Positions 2,645 through 14,466 of a stretch of DNA of 44,026 bases are shown piece after piece. Under the pieces are notes generated by a model that worked only from the letters and a program-made list of their open reading frames with translations, made no database searches and was not told where the DNA came from. Location: positions 1 through 44,026 of the forward strand of contig SYMT01000317.1 in the NCBI GenBank assembly GCA_005805375.1. Direction: 5' to 3'. The stretch's first letter is position 1; every line of letters begins with the position of its first letter. The position numbers were made by a program, and so were the translations under genes. The DNA comes from Actinomycetota bacterium (GTDB taxonomy: Bacteria > Armatimonadota > SYMT01).

Positions 2645-3400
2645 ATGGACGCACTATCGACGATAACGGCACTAGTCGTGATCGTGGGATTCGCGATCCA
2701 GCAGTGTATCCAGTTGCTGGACATCCCGATTTCCGCATGGATAAAAAAAACTCTCCACGCGGGGACAATCTACGGCCGCCCTACCTGGCGGCGCCGCAGC
2801 TGTGCCCGCCCTACCTGGCGGCGCCGCAGCTGCGCCCTACCTGGCGGCGCCGCAGCTGCGCCCGCCCTACCTGGCGGCGGCATTCCCGGTGGCCTTTCAG
2901 AGGCGGACTTCAAAAAGGCAATTACCAGCGTTCTATCAGTTCTCTTAGCACTGGGCGTGGTCGTGCTCACCAAGAATAATATCTCCGTGCTGGGACAGAT
3001 CAATCATGCCTGGAAAGGCACTGTGGGCGACTGGTTGGTGACTGCACTGACGCTGGGTGCCGGGACCGAGGGCGCGAATACTTTCCTAAAGTACGTCGGC
3101 TACGTGAAGGACGCGAAAAAGCCGCCCGAACCTTCACCCGCCCCTTTGCCGATTACAGTCGTCGTGTTCCCACCGACCGCATCCGTGAAGGTAGGGACAA
3201 CCGTACAATTCCGAGCGCAGATTAGTAATACCGACAACACCCAAGGTGTTGTGTGGTCGGTGGTCCAAGGCAACGGCGGCGCCATCGAACAGAACGGTCT
3301 GTATACTGCGCCCACGACGGCCGGAACATACCACGTGGCGGTCACCATCAAAGACGACGTGTCAAAGTTCGCTCTATCGACGGTGACCGTAACGCCGTGA
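2645..3400 (+). CDS. Membrane protein with tandem-repeat segment and BIG2-like Ig domain
   Basis: This 251-residue protein starts at ATG 2645, with GGGAGG four bases upstream. Residues 5-22 form a membrane segment. Residues 45-79 are encoded by a short tandem DNA repeat (2777-2879) and read as two RPTWRRRSCA units, then LPGGAAAAPALPGG in a different repeat frame. Residues 92-109 are a second membrane segment. The stretch around 128-155 (GDWLVTALTLGAGTEGANT) is amphipathic and may be a third. After a KKPPEPSPAP linker, residues 170-251 form a bacterial Ig-like (BIG2-type) domain with the typical GLYTAPTTAGTYHVAVT signature and a final VTVTP. It is probably an envelope-anchored protein. It is flanked by the MITE-like element and the IS, in a stretch that looks acquired. 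Confidence 0.65.
   Translation: MDALSTITALVVIVGFAIQQCIQLLDIPISAWIKKTLHAGTIYGRPTWRRRSCARPTWRRRSCALPGGAAAAPALPGGGIPGGLSEADFKKAITSVLSVLLALGVVVLTKNNISVLGQINHAWKGTVGDWLVTALTLGAGTEGANTFLKYVGYVKDAKKPPEPSPAPLPITVVVFPPTASVKVGTTVQFRAQISNTDNTQGVVWSVVQGNGGAIEQNGLYTAPTTAGTYHVAVTIKDDVSKFALSTVTVTP
2777..2879 (+). repeat. Tandem repeat of 30, 26, 30 bp plus partial unit
   Basis: The unit begins CGCCCTACCTGGCGGCGCCG and ends GCAGCTG plus a CGCC/TGCC tail. Copies start at 2777, 2807, 2833 and 2863. The second copy lacks the four-base tail, so the reading frame through the repeat changes there. The unit contains palindromes GGCGCC and CAGCTG. The array lies wholly inside the gene at 2645. Confidence 0.85.
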
Positions 3401-3538
3401 CCGCTGGGCAATCGGTGCCGCGAAGAAGGTCGTCCGACCCTGAGAGCAGCGGCGCTGAACAAGGGCGCGTCCCGATGGCGCGCTTGCGGACTCCGATGGT
3501 GGTGATGAGAGGCACGACCGACTCGCGGATGCCGGTAA

Positions 3539-5147
3539 CTAGGATCGTGCGGAATCGCGGGGTTTCTGTACGGTCACCCAGATTGCGGAACCGTGTAAAA
3601 TCGGCGACTTTTCAAAAGAGGAGGGAGAAACGACATACGGTGTGGAATCTGCACTGAACAACCGCAAACCCACTGGGTACACCACATGTCTCTCCCGCCT
3701 CTCTACTCCGTTCTCCCGGGCTTCGCGCCGTTCCTCCGTGCCTTCCGTTCCGTCTTCTCCGGCCCGCAACGACGCCACTTCGTGGCCTACCTCGACGCCC
3801 TCTCGCGCCTCGACGCCCCCGCGACCGCGGTGGCCATCGCCCGTTCCCAAGCGTTCTACCGGCATCCCTGCAACGTGCGCCGTTTCGTCACCACGGCGCC
3901 CTGGTACTTGGATGACGCGGAGCGCGTGGGACACCGGACGTTGCGCCGCCATTTCCGCACCTATCCGCTTCAGGGGCACCTCCTGGGCGGGAAACAGACC
4001 GTATTTCTGATCCTGGATGACACGCAGGTCCCTAAGGCAGGCCTGGAATTGGAGGGTACGGACTTTCACTACTCTGCCACTAAGAAGCAGTTCCAGCGAG
4101 GATATCAACCGTTCTTGGCGGTATATCGGGTCGGCCGTTATACCTTTTCCTGGCGCATCACTCCTTATTTGCGCGAGAAAACGGTGTCTCAGGTGAACCA
4201 ATTACGGAGGTGGAAGGCCCGTGAGCATCCGGGTACTCGACTGCACGAGCGGTCGTTTTACAGCAAGATTGATCTGGCCTTGGAAGTGGTGCGTGACTTC
4301 ACGCCCCTGCAACGAGATCGGACCGTCTGTGTCCTGTTCGATAGTTGGTATTGTTCCCAAGAAGTGGTGCGTGCCTGTGAGAAAAAACAGTGGCTGTGGT
4401 GCAGCCGTCTGAAAAGCAATCGCAAGCTGAACTTGCTCTCGCCGCGCCTCGATACCGCGTCGGCAGAGACCAGTGAGCGCCTGGCGGTCAGCGAACTGCA
4501 AACCAGAGCCGAAGAGAGGAACGCAGAGGTCCCGCAGCGCGCGTCTTCCCGCGAGGGAAAATGGACGAGTTGTACGGTGAAGGGGTCCGAGTACCGCTAC
4601 GTCTCGTATCGGGCGCGGGTGGGTAATTTGGGAGAGGCAGTGGTGGTCCTGTGCCAGCGACGCAGTCAGGCGGGAGGCTGGTCAGCCGCCGCCATGCTGG
4701 TGAGCAATGCCGTGCACTGGACCGGGGAAGAAGTACTCATTGCCTATCTGGAGCGGAGCAGCATCGAGATATTCATTCGGGACATCAAGCAGGAAACCGG
4801 CCTTGGAGCGAGCCAGGTGGCGGATTTATCCGGCGCGGAGGCGCACTGGTGGCTGGCAACCCTCGCCGCGGGGTGGTTGACGGTAGCCCGTCACCTGGCG
4901 GATATCGGGCAGTGGGTGGACGTCAATGGGGAGCCGGTAGCGACCCTGGGAAACAGCGTTCGGTGGGCGAAGGAATGGCTCCATGGACAGGAAAAAGCAC
5001 AACTGGTGGGGTGGGTGTACCGCGCGGCGGAGAGCGGACGGAGCCGTGCGGAACTTGTTGCGGAGGTCACTCGTCCACACGCAATCAGTGTCCGCTAGGT
5101 CCGGATTCCGTTGCGTACCAAAATCCCCTGATTCCGCACGATCCTAG
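3539..5147 (+). mobile_element. Complete IS4/IS701-type insertion sequence
   Basis: The ends are inverted repeats. CTAGGATCGTGCGGAATC (3539-3556) is repeated exactly in reverse at 5130-5147, and an imperfect continuation gives about 34 bp with five mismatches (3539-3572 and 5114-5147). The element is about 1.6 kb and carries one transposase gene ending 15 bp before the right repeat. Both flanks read CCGGTAA (3532-3538 and 5148-5154). This can be a 7-bp target duplication. Alternatively, the outer CTAG is a 4-bp YTAR-type duplication as known for IS701 relatives, with CCGGTAA already present twice. The element looks intact. Confidence 0.85.
3686..5098 (+). CDS. IS4/IS701-type DDE transposase
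   Basis: This 470-residue cut-and-paste transposase belongs to the IS4 superfamily. The DDE residues are visible. The first Asp is in LILDDTQVPKAG (D111/D112), and the second is in LFDSWYCS (D219). The Glu lies in the IS4 signature Y-x2-R-x3-E-x6-K, matched exactly by Y354, R357, E361 and K368 in a segment reading YLERSSIEIFIRDIKQETG. Length and motifs are complete, with no internal stop, so the enzyme may be active. The start at 3686 (MSLPPLYSVL) fits the family. Its terminal repeats are described with the element. Confidence 0.9.
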   Translation: MSLPPLYSVLPGFAPFLRAFRSVFSGPQRRHFVAYLDALSRLDAPATAVAIARSQAFYRHPCNVRRFVTTAPWYLDDAERVGHRTLRRHFRTYPLQGHLLGGKQTVFLILDDTQVPKAGLELEGTDFHYSATKKQFQRGYQPFLAVYRVGRYTFSWRITPYLREKTVSQVNQLRRWKAREHPGTRLHERSFYSKIDLALEVVRDFTPLQRDRTVCVLFDSWYCSQEVVRACEKKQWLWCSRLKSNRKLNLLSPRLDTASAETSERLAVSELQTRAEERNAEVPQRASSREGKWTSCTVKGSEYRYVSYRARVGNLGEAVVVLCQRRSQAGGWSAAAMLVSNAVHWTGEEVLIAYLERSSIEIFIRDIKQETGLGASQVADLSGAEAHWWLATLAAGWLTVARHLADIGQWVDVNGEPVATLGNSVRWAKEWLHGQEKAQLVGWVYRAAESGRSRAELVAEVTRPHAISVR

Positions 5148-5171
5148 CCGGTAAGATGCCGGCGTTCCCGG
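5148..5171 (+). repeat. GCCGGC hairpin repeat, disrupted by the IS
   Basis: CCGGTAAGATGCCGGC followed by GTTCCCGG is one copy of the dispersed hairpin repeat found several times between 10.8 and 14.5 kb. The matching GATGCCGGTAA lies just left of the IS (3528-3538). Removing the IS and one CCGGTAA restores a continuous repeat. Confidence 0.75.
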
Positions 5172-10805: not shown

Positions 10806-10830
10806 GCCGGCAAGATGCCGGGGTTCCCGG
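10806..10830 (+). repeat. Dispersed hairpin repeat copy
   Basis: GCCGGCAAGATGCCGGG followed by GTTCCCGG. The outer pair of the stem is mismatched here. It lies in the 421-bp space between divergent genes (SDR at 10733 and the kelch protein at 11155). That space holds no gene, only repeats. Confidence 0.8.
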
Positions 10831-10880
10831 CTCGGGCGCGCCAGCCCAGCGTTGCGGGGCGCACGTCCCGACGCCCGGAG

Positions 10881-10914
10881 TTTCCACCGCAGAGGACGCA
10901 GAGGATCGCAGAGG
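10881..10914 (+). repeat. Short GCAGAGGA-type triplicated repeat
   Basis: TTTCCACC is followed by three near-copies of GCAGAGGA(C/TC) (10889-10914). From memory, similar CTCTGCG-rich low-complexity elements occur widely between genes of environmental bacteria. No function is known to me. Confidence 0.5.
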
Positions 10915-10972
10915 GACATCCGACCGGCGCCGGCGCTACTGCCGGCGTCCGGGAATCCGCCGGCGCGCCCGA

Positions 10973-11085
10973 GCCGGCAAGATGCCGGCGTTCCCGGGGT
11001 GGATTGCGCGTTGGAGGCCGGCAAGATGCTGGCGTTCTCGGGGTGGATTGCGCGCCGGAGGCCGGCAAGATGCCGGTGGTCCTGG
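10973..11085 (+). repeat. Three hairpin-repeat copies spaced 44 bp apart
   Basis: Copies start at 10973, 11017 and 11061, each GCCGGC-AAGAT-G(C/T)CGG(C/T)-like. The 19 bases between copies (GGGTGGATTGCGCG plus GGAG) are also nearly identical, so this is a tandem array of a 44-bp unit. It lies just upstream of the kelch-protein gene. Confidence 0.85.
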
Positions 11086-11154
11086 GGTGGATCGCGTGCA
11101 GGAAGGAGCGCCCCGCAGCGTGAACCATGCGATGACATCACAAAGGATTTCCCG

Positions 11155-12578: not shown

Positions 12579-12812
12579 CGGAGCGTTCCCCGGCCCCACC
12601 GTCATTAGAACGGAGCGCCATCCCATCTCCCGGCCCGGGTTGCTGAGGACGCACAACGTACGCGATGCTGTGGGGGTGGGCGTGACGTGGTGCGATGCAA
12701 TGGGTTCCCGCTGCCCGACCGCAGAAGAAGTTTCCCCGCCCGATCGGATGCAGAACGTGGCCCGCCTTGCTCACGCCCGTACGTTCACGGGCGCGAGCAA
12801 GGCGGAGCGCGG

Positions 12813-12924
12813 GCCGGCAAGATGCCGGCGTTCCCGGGGCGGAGGGAAGGAAAGCGTGGAGAGGAGTGAGGAATGAGTGAGGCCTGCACTCGTTTCTCAC
12901 TCCTCCCTGGCCCGGCGTTCCCGG
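12813..12924 (+). repeat. Composite palindromic repeat, copy A (112 bp)
   Basis: The element starts with a perfect GCCGGC-AAGAT-GCCGGC hairpin plus GTTCCCGGGG. A purine-rich GGAGGGAAGGAAAG stretch follows, then GAGGAGTGAG and its inverted partner CTCACTCCTC about 30 bases apart, and it ends with CCCGGCGTTCCCGG. A near-identical copy lies in the opposite orientation at 14325-14449, so the two bracket the gene at 12955-14136. The rest of the 429-bp space between 12525 and 12955 holds a terminator and a small CGCCCGT/ACGGGCG hairpin (near 12773), but no gene. Confidence 0.85.
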
Positions 12925-12954
12925 AGCTTCCGCGGACGCGAGCGAGAGGTGGTC

Positions 12955-14136
12955 CTACTCCGACACGTCCTTTGCTACCAGGGGGACGAGCGGGCGGGTG
13001 CCCGTCGGGCGCCAGGGGACGCGGTCGTAGCTCCGGTAGGCCAAGTCCAGGTGCGGGGTTTCGACCCGCGTGTGGCCCCGGTAACGGGACTCGAGGCCTG
13101 CTTCCAGAATGCCGCTGGTGAGGAGGGTGCGTTCGACCGGGTACGAGGCCACGCCGGTGACGAACATTTCTTCGACGTTCAGGCTCAGGTAGCTGAAGTG
13201 GGCGTGGGGAGATCCGGGCTGGAGGAAAAACTCCGTGCCGTAAATCGTGCCCTCGCTCCGGCAGGCGAACGCGAGATCGGTGACGTAGCCGTTCAGCATG
13301 AGCGCAGCCCCGCGGGTGCCGTCGCGGTACTCGACCAGGAAGATCGCTGGATTTGCACAGTGCTGCTCCATCGGTCCTTCCGGCTTCTTCTCGATCGGAG
13401 CACAGGCTGCCTCAGCCACTTCGCGGGACCAGAGCCCATCGCGGGCGGCCTGCCACACGGCCTCCCCCTCCAGGCAGGTGACCGCGGCGACTCCGGTCTC
13501 TCCTCCGGTGCGGCGCTCCACCATGCATTGGAGCGTCTCCAGCGTATGGAATCCGTAGATATCCAGGCCGGAAAAGCCGATCGCCACCGCTTCCTCTACC
13601 GGCGTATCGAGTGCCAGTTCGAGCCAGGGGTTGCGCCAGCCGAGCGGCAGCGATGAACCGGCCATGAACGGCGCTCCCAGTTCGCGGGCGCGGTCATACA
13701 TCCACTTCGCGTCGTGCCAGTTCCAGGAGAGGTGCTTGTCGTTGAAGATCGGGACAGCCCGCTTGCTGGTGGCGAAGACGCCGCAGATCTGTTCCATGAA
13801 AAACTTGCGCGGGAAGAGTTGCTGTTCGCGTTCGTTCCAGGCGTAATCGCCGTGTTCGCCGATGAGGAGCACCCCATCCACAGCCAGTTCTTTCCCCCCC
13901 TGGGTCAGTGCCTTGACGATGCTGGGGTAGATCGGCACGTTGTGCTTGGCGGCGATGCCGCGCGCCAGGTCATTCTCGGCGAACTGATCCACATACATCG
14001 AGACCACGTCCACGCGAGGGGGAAGCACCCCGGCGTCCGTGGGAAAGCCTTCGAGGAACTTGGTGACGACAACGTCCGCGTGGGAGTGCGGGAAGTAGAC
14101 CGTGACAATGGCGGCGATGCGTTTGCGGTTGGACAT
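12955..14136 (-). CDS. Conserved protein of unknown function
   Basis: This 393-residue protein has no signal peptide or membrane segment. I recall close homologues of the same layout in Planctomycetota-like and Acidobacteria-like genomes, always uncharacterised: an N-terminus like RIAAIVTVYFPHSHADVVV, then VDVVSMYVDQ, VDGVLLIGEHGDYAWNE, VPIFNDKHLSWNWHDAKWMY, FMAGSSLPLGWRNPW and TLETLQCMVERRTGGETGV. The first 200 residues look like a Rossmann-type alpha/beta domain, broadly reminiscent of Gfo/Idh-like oxidoreductases but without a clear GxGxxG. The strongly conserved His/Asp-rich loops suggest an enzyme. The gene is bracketed by inverted copies of a 112-125 bp repeat. Confidence 0.75.
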   Translation of the reverse strand: MSNRKRIAAIVTVYFPHSHADVVVTKFLEGFPTDAGVLPPRVDVVSMYVDQFAENDLARGIAAKHNVPIYPSIVKALTQGGKELAVDGVLLIGEHGDYAWNEREQQLFPRKFFMEQICGVFATSKRAVPIFNDKHLSWNWHDAKWMYDRARELGAPFMAGSSLPLGWRNPWLELALDTPVEEAVAIGFSGLDIYGFHTLETLQCMVERRTGGETGVAAVTCLEGEAVWQAARDGLWSREVAEAACAPIEKKPEGPMEQHCANPAIFLVEYRDGTRGAALMLNGYVTDLAFACRSEGTIYGTEFFLQPGSPHAHFSYLSLNVEEMFVTGVASYPVERTLLTSGILEAGLESRYRGHTRVETPHLDLAYRSYDRVPWRPTGTRPLVPLVAKDVSE

Positions 14137-14324
14137 GGCGGGTTGCGGGAATCGGTGCGCGGTAGAGCGCTGGGTCGAACGGCGATGACTATCACACCGC
14201 TTGTTGTCCTTGGGGGCCCCCGACTCCTCGTCGTCTTGCGGCCGGCTGTTCCCGCTGCAGTCTCACTCGTCGCCATCGCGCATCTCAGCCCCAGCCGGCG
14301 CCGAGTTCAACCGGCAGTTTCGCC

Positions 14325-14449
14325 CCGGGAACGCCGGGCCAGAGAGGAGTGAGTATAGAGGAGTGAGCAACGCGTGCAGGCCCTCACTCATGCCTCACTC
14401 CTCTCCGCTCTTTCCTTCCCTCCGCCCCGGGAACGCCGGCATCTTGCCG
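14325..14449 (-). repeat. Composite palindromic repeat, copy B (125 bp, inverted)
   Basis: This is the reverse complement of the element at 12813-12924, alignable from the GCCGGC hairpin (14433-14449) through GGAGGGAAGGAAAG and GAGGAGTGAGG to CCCGGCGTTCCCGG. The main difference is an extra copy of the ACTCACTCCTCT segment. The 373 bases between 14136 and 14510 contain this element and one further hairpin copy, with no gene. Confidence 0.85.
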
Positions 14450-14466
14450 GCCTGCACGACCGGGCA

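Follow-up and report, generated by a model that had tools for sequence, protein, structure and literature searches.

The locus examined here raises two related questions, namely whether an insertion sequence (IS) that lies inside a short dispersed hairpin repeat was led there by recognition of that hairpin, and how many base pairs of target it duplicated on entering. A sequence-only reading of the 44,026-bp stretch of DNA analyzed (hereafter, the window) had described an IS4/IS701-type element within a hairpin repeat unit, and this description holds; the IS is intact. The span that it had been given, 3528-5171, does contain the IS, but also takes in parts of the repeat, the IS proper being slightly shorter (3539-5147).

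Structure of the element and its transposase

Delimited by its inverted ends and a flanking direct repeat, the complete IS measures 1609 bp (3539..5147, forward strand) and has a GC content of 61%, versus 65% for the window. Its terminal inverted repeats, the left starting with CTAGGATCGTGCGGAATC... (3539..3572, forward strand) and the right located at 5114..5147 on the reverse strand, are 85% complementary over 34 nt and complementary in all of the outermost 18 (18/18), with the termini reading CTAGGATCG... and ...CGATCCTAG. Sequence and flank comparison place the left and right copies of the 7-bp target duplication favored below, CCGGTAA, at 3532..3538 and 5148..5154, respectively (both forward strand). 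A REP-like hairpin unit, GCCGGTAAGATGCCGGCGTTCCCGG, identified by repeat and fold analysis at 5147..5171 (forward strand), has its 5' arm interrupted by the IS and overlaps it by one base, as the G that opens the unit closes the IS.

A transposase of 470 amino acids is encoded by a single long ORF (3686..5098, forward strand), which was characterized using profiles and an alignment. D112 (or D111), D219 and E361 are its putative DDE residues, a catalytic role that we infer from the protein sequence; in a 14-row alignment D111, D112 and D219 were invariant and E361 was at least 90% conserved. The YREK motif is complete (Y354-R357-E361-K368), with the spacing Y(2)R(3)E(6)K. The protein matched Pfam DDE_Tnp_1 (PF01609) with E=5e-14 and 52.9 bits against a cut-off of 23, and its best-scoring NCBIfam model was that of IS701 (NF033540; E=7e-34), with 117.7 bits, below the curated cut-off of 150; the NCBIfam IS4 models scored weaker. 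All features of the IS4 superfamily (DDE_Tnp_1) were found, that is, a DDE transposase, a single ORF, inverted repeats and a target duplication, and the YREK and the favored 7-bp duplication would also suit the IS4 family as delimited in PMC2266710 (YREK, 7-13 bp), but the transposase is closer to the IS701 models. The IS can be regarded as a new and divergent element of the IS701/IS4 group.

The repeat unit at the insertion site

Allowing at most one mismatch, the repeat pattern GCCGGYAAGATGCCGGC was found at 177 places in the 7.46-Mb assembly of the host, versus 0 for a reversed control pattern, and at 25 bp each these strict repeats account for ~0.06% of the genome. Ninety copies were exact, two of which, including the IS site, carried a T variant and the others a C. 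A looser pattern detected 8 repeat cores in the 44-kb window, which is thus repeat-rich. When the flanks of the IS were compared to the repeat, the right flank scored 44, a value reached by 0/1500 random pieces, whereas the left flank alone scored at background level (586/1500 random pieces as high), because just ~8-11 bases of the repeat lie on the left side.

As had been proposed, excision of the IS together with one CCGGTAA restores a normal repeat unit, the joined flanks reading GGATGCCGGTAAGATGCCGGCGTTCCCGG. In the 52 contexts examined (window and 48 fetched loci), the core was preceded by GATG twice and by CATG three times; since these are rare yet present, the context of the reconstructed unit can be accepted, if as a minor one. 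In folding predictions, both the consensus (z of -2.55) and the reconstructed unit (z of -2.30) formed hairpins that were somewhat better than those of shuffled sequences, with 3/200 shuffles being as good in each case.

Additional repeat arrangements were observed in the window. A cluster of repeat units at 10806-11104 includes three at a 44-bp tandem spacing, and two inverted, repeat-bearing arms at 12809-12927 and 14322-14455, whose complementarity is 95% over 74 nt and 87% over 39 nt, enclose a minus-strand ORF of 393 amino acids (12955-14136), for which no Pfam match was found at E 0.01. Short GC-rich direct repeats with 26-30 bp spacing lie at 2769-2885, within an ORF (2645-3400) whose product gave weak PKD/Big_2 matches, below the cut-offs.

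Length of the target duplication

By themselves, the IS ends permit a duplication of 4 bp (CTAG), 7 bp (CCGGTAA) or 8 bp (GCCGGTAA). We compared the IS to relatives from public plasmids (part of the 20 plasmid records matched) and to one in another genome of the phylum, G007. Flanking repeats of 6-8 bp were found at CT-ends in 12 of 15 elements, the window IS included. Upon swapping the flanks of these same 15 elements, 0/210 pairs matched over 6-8 bp and the longest match was 3 bp, a control that is not wholly independent, as the ends were initially chosen by a score rewarding the inverted repeat together with the duplication. Three relatives added later had 7 bp each (L121 by eye, L126 and L127 by scan), so that 6-8 bp duplications were present overall in 15 of 18 elements (the window IS and 17 relatives), with the misses L106 (3 bp), L113 (2 bp) and L062 (3 bp at CT-ends) kept in the count. 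Left out of it were L110 and L108, whose ends were unconvincing, L122, for which a left end was not found, L123, a partial match, and L025. Several relatives have an inverted repeat that, taken alone, continues a few bases past the chosen CT-end. Two yardsticks from outside the group, subjected to the same scan, gave 5 bp (ISAba11, L125) and no duplication (a Stanieria element, L124). A 7-bp duplication, which the sequence-only reading had deemed unusual, is thus of a length class shared by most of the elements compared.

The 15 duplications were mostly A/T-rich, with T as the first base in 12 and A as the last in 11; CCGGTAA of the window IS begins with C, unlike the 12 that begin with T. Ten of them measured 7 bp, four 6 bp and one 8 bp. 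The last, in relative L119, provides an example for an 8-bp duplication, which in the window IS would be GCCGGTAA, fitting with a right end one base shorter whose final G is assigned to the flank. Since this assignment makes the element ends unequal, and since 7 bp is the length of 10/15 measured duplications, we find an 8-bp duplication hardly credible.

The 4-bp alternative holds that the duplication is CTAG (YTAR type), that the element extends from GATCGTG to CACGATC, and that the CCGGTAA repeat existed before the insertion. CTAG is indeed found on both sides, in agreement with the 4 bp that IS701 duplicates and with the nTAG duplications of IS701 members from Deinococcus (excerpts of PMC2266710 and PMC10017437, respectively), and it resembles CGAG, which usually precedes the repeat (18/52 contexts). 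Against this stand the 6-8 bp duplications with CT-ends in 15/18 elements, and also the rare T, which is common to both copies of CCGGTAA. Moreover, the pre-existing arrangement that it requires, CCGGYAA-(0-20)-CCGGYAAGATGCCGG (CCGGTAA-gap-CCGGTAAGATG), occurred 0 times in the assembly. At the bases equivalent to CTAG, the host genome has four further ends, those of C505, C572, C201 and C563, which read CTGG, CCGG, CTGG and CTGA, respectively (that of C563 by eye); none of these is CTAG or YTAR, and so CTAG looks like the end of the element rather than a YTAR target, though all their departures from CTAG are transitions and they may be old CTAG ends that mutated.

The sequence-only reading had left the choice between 7 and 4 bp ambiguous. 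Relatives, other ends and the absent pre-existing site now favor CCGGTAA, and CTAG, formally possible, is very improbable; the target duplication is most likely the 7-bp CCGGTAA. The 4-bp rule of IS701 and the nTAG of Deinococcus therefore seem not to be transferable to the elements compared here. Under the 7-bp model, the IS-free site would read GGATGCCGGTAAGATGCCGGCG and not ...CCGGTAACTAGCCGGTAA....

Other copies in the host genome and the choice of site

The host assembly, which is 80% complete, contains one complete copy of the IS and five fragments (C572, C505, C201, C563 and C300), all decayed and four of them keeping one end each; C201 and C563 were located via DNA similarity. The fragment at positions 1-483 of C563 (L005), a contig that starts inside the element, is a decayed and apparently internally deleted derivative of the IS. 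When 2 mismatches were allowed, the 15-bp end motif occurred at 40 places in the host genome, versus 3 for the reversed control. At 30 of these 40 places, the adjoining 55 bp on the inner side were compared with the two IS ends, and only the two ends of the window IS, C505 and C572, all with the exact motif, stand out (scores of 74-110), the next place scoring 24, a value reached by 42/3000 random pieces. As most of the places read lack further likeness to the IS ends, the surplus of motifs is not explained by extra copies. Neither a second intact copy nor an empty site of the window IS was found in the genomes, viral contigs and phage records searched. A different transposase gene is present in the host genome in two similar copies, on C426 (L028) and C100 (L031); the product of the C426 gene matched NCBIfam IS701_3 above the cut-off, and the search found no plasmid relatives of it.

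The sequence-only reading had further suggested that the IS targets the hairpin, a suggestion to be given up if other copies were inserted in unrelated sequence, and the four other readable ends do lie in repeat-free sequence. Their 45-bp flanks scored 12-16 against the repeat, compared to a median of 14 and a 95th percentile of 20 for random pieces, in a first background of 1500 pieces from 30 host-genome loci that included window loci, and with the C572 flank taken one base off the end. Upon rerunning the comparison with the end bases, exact ends and a window-free background, the four flanks scored 12-16 again (reached by 846-1888 of 2000 random pieces) and the right flank of the window IS scored 48 (reached by 0/2000). 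The C572 flank was considered as a degenerate repeat and rejected, given that it scored 16 with the end bases and that 846/2000 random pieces scored as high. Overall, one of five readable insertion sites lies inside the repeat, the other four being old, single, truncated ends, whereas elements that target REPs are recognized by having all or nearly all of their copies in them.

A transposase that specifically targets the hairpin repeat, in the way that ISRm22 (IS4 family) and IS1397 target REPs, and whose 7-bp cut spans the 5' arm, would explain why the sole intact copy sits in a unit covering ~0.06% of the genome. The IS4 family offers a precedent in ISRm22, all copies of which are in REPs with 6-bp repeats (PMC1525189, in excerpt). 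However, for type 1 REP-inserted elements the same excerpt gives 100% of copies as lying in REPs, and here four ends were found outside repeats; furthermore, the unit entered is a rare variant (2/90, itself included), and the duplicated bases are in the 5' arm, off the axis of the hairpin, whereas ISRm22 is described in PMC1525189 (same excerpt) as inserting on the axis. We therefore consider specific targeting unlikely. Given that the T yielding ...TAA occurs in just 2/90 exact repeats, and that the duplications are mostly A/T-rich and mostly end with A, a loose preference or chance is the simpler explanation. Still, the single intact copy lies in a repeat that occupies ~0.06% of the genome, where a chance landing is unlikely a priori, and so a weak preference for the repeat is possible.

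Relatives and distribution

The window transposase shares 22-26% identity with its plasmid relatives, and in a 19-row tree it was located on a long branch, weakly placed and without firm neighbors. Searching 291 genomes of the phylum, with up to 5 candidates scored per genome, we found matches at 1e-40 in the host genome only, among the matches listed; for the host class and order the search covered 3 genomes. One further match in the phylum, again among those listed, was found in G007 (1e-12, 36% identity over part, frame broken). This element (L062, on C20) has the ends CTGTAG/CTGCAG and a flanking repeat of 3 bp or, with other ends, of 5 bp (GTTAC). A scan of genome contigs for close relatives yielded a single locus, in Halococcus, with 27% identity, and no relatives of the window IS were found in viral contigs or, at the DNA level, in phage records.

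YREK was complete in all 14 group relatives scanned (L106 and L121 being outside the scan), 13 of which had 6-8 bp duplications, with L113 as the miss. The Stanieria and G007 elements also have YREK, while ISAba11 lacks it. It is conceivable, though rather unlikely, that the "IS701" elements in which a complete YREK is combined with CT-ends and duplications of 6-8 bp represent their own branch or branches or stand nearer to IS4, and that the window IS is a long isolated lineage among them, hardly seen otherwise in the phylum, with a weak preference for TAA-ended sites such as the T variant of the repeat provides.

Taken together, it is very probable that a divergent IS of the IS701/IS4 group entered a REP-like unit with a 7-bp duplication, through a loose preference or chance and not through hairpin recognition. 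The presumed route is a cut-and-paste transposition into the 5' arm of a single unit of the dispersed repeat, where staggered cuts 7 bp apart around CCGGTAA, once repaired, would have produced the duplication; both mechanism and activity are deduced. Most likely, the site was taken either via a loose A/T-rich preference, usually for targets that start with T and end with A in the orientation of the IS, or by plain chance in intergenic DNA. The rare CCGGTAA variant of the repeat would satisfy such a preference in part, as it ends with A but starts with C. Both the duplication length and the site choice draw on one insertion plus distant relatives (22-26% identity).

Comparison with known systems

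These findings remove a false surprise, as the 7-bp duplication fits the nearest relatives, and they leave the single repeat hit as weak evidence of hairpin targeting. They also indicate that publicly annotated "IS701" elements include ones with 6-8 bp duplications and a full YREK, against the 4-bp definition of 2008 (PMC2266710, in excerpt). A Thermus member of IS701 does have a 4-bp duplication (PMC6352166, in excerpt). Our literature search for IS701 with YTAR, CTAG or 7-bp duplications found no paper, and the point may already be in print.

The IS701 family of 2008, as described in the excerpt of PMC2266710, resembles the window IS in the similarity of its transposase to IS701 models and in size (1400-1550 bp, near 1609), and differs from it in having 4-bp repeats and a mostly incomplete YREK, where the window IS has a favored 7-bp duplication and a complete YREK. 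By description only, and from the same excerpt, the ISPepr1 subgroup of IS4 is also similar, with 7-8 bp repeats, YT-ends, YREK and a length of 1500-1600 bp. ISRm22 of Sinorhizobium is likewise an IS4-related element found inside a REP, but all its copies are in REPs, on the axis and with 6-bp repeats (PMC1525189, in excerpt), whereas the window IS has one of five sites in the repeat, off the axis. Finally, the ISBsm1-like and haloarchaeal "IS701" elements (NF033540), found on plasmids of Geobacillus, Priestia, Halorhabdus, Halococcus and others, share with the window IS the Y(2)R(3)E(6)K spacing, 5'-CT ends, a single gene and mostly 6-8 bp duplications; they differ from it in the length of the transposase (389-408 aa versus 470 aa), in sequence (22-26% identity) and in their NF033540 scores, which were 228-261 for the five relatives scanned versus 117.7 for the window transposase (cut-off 150).
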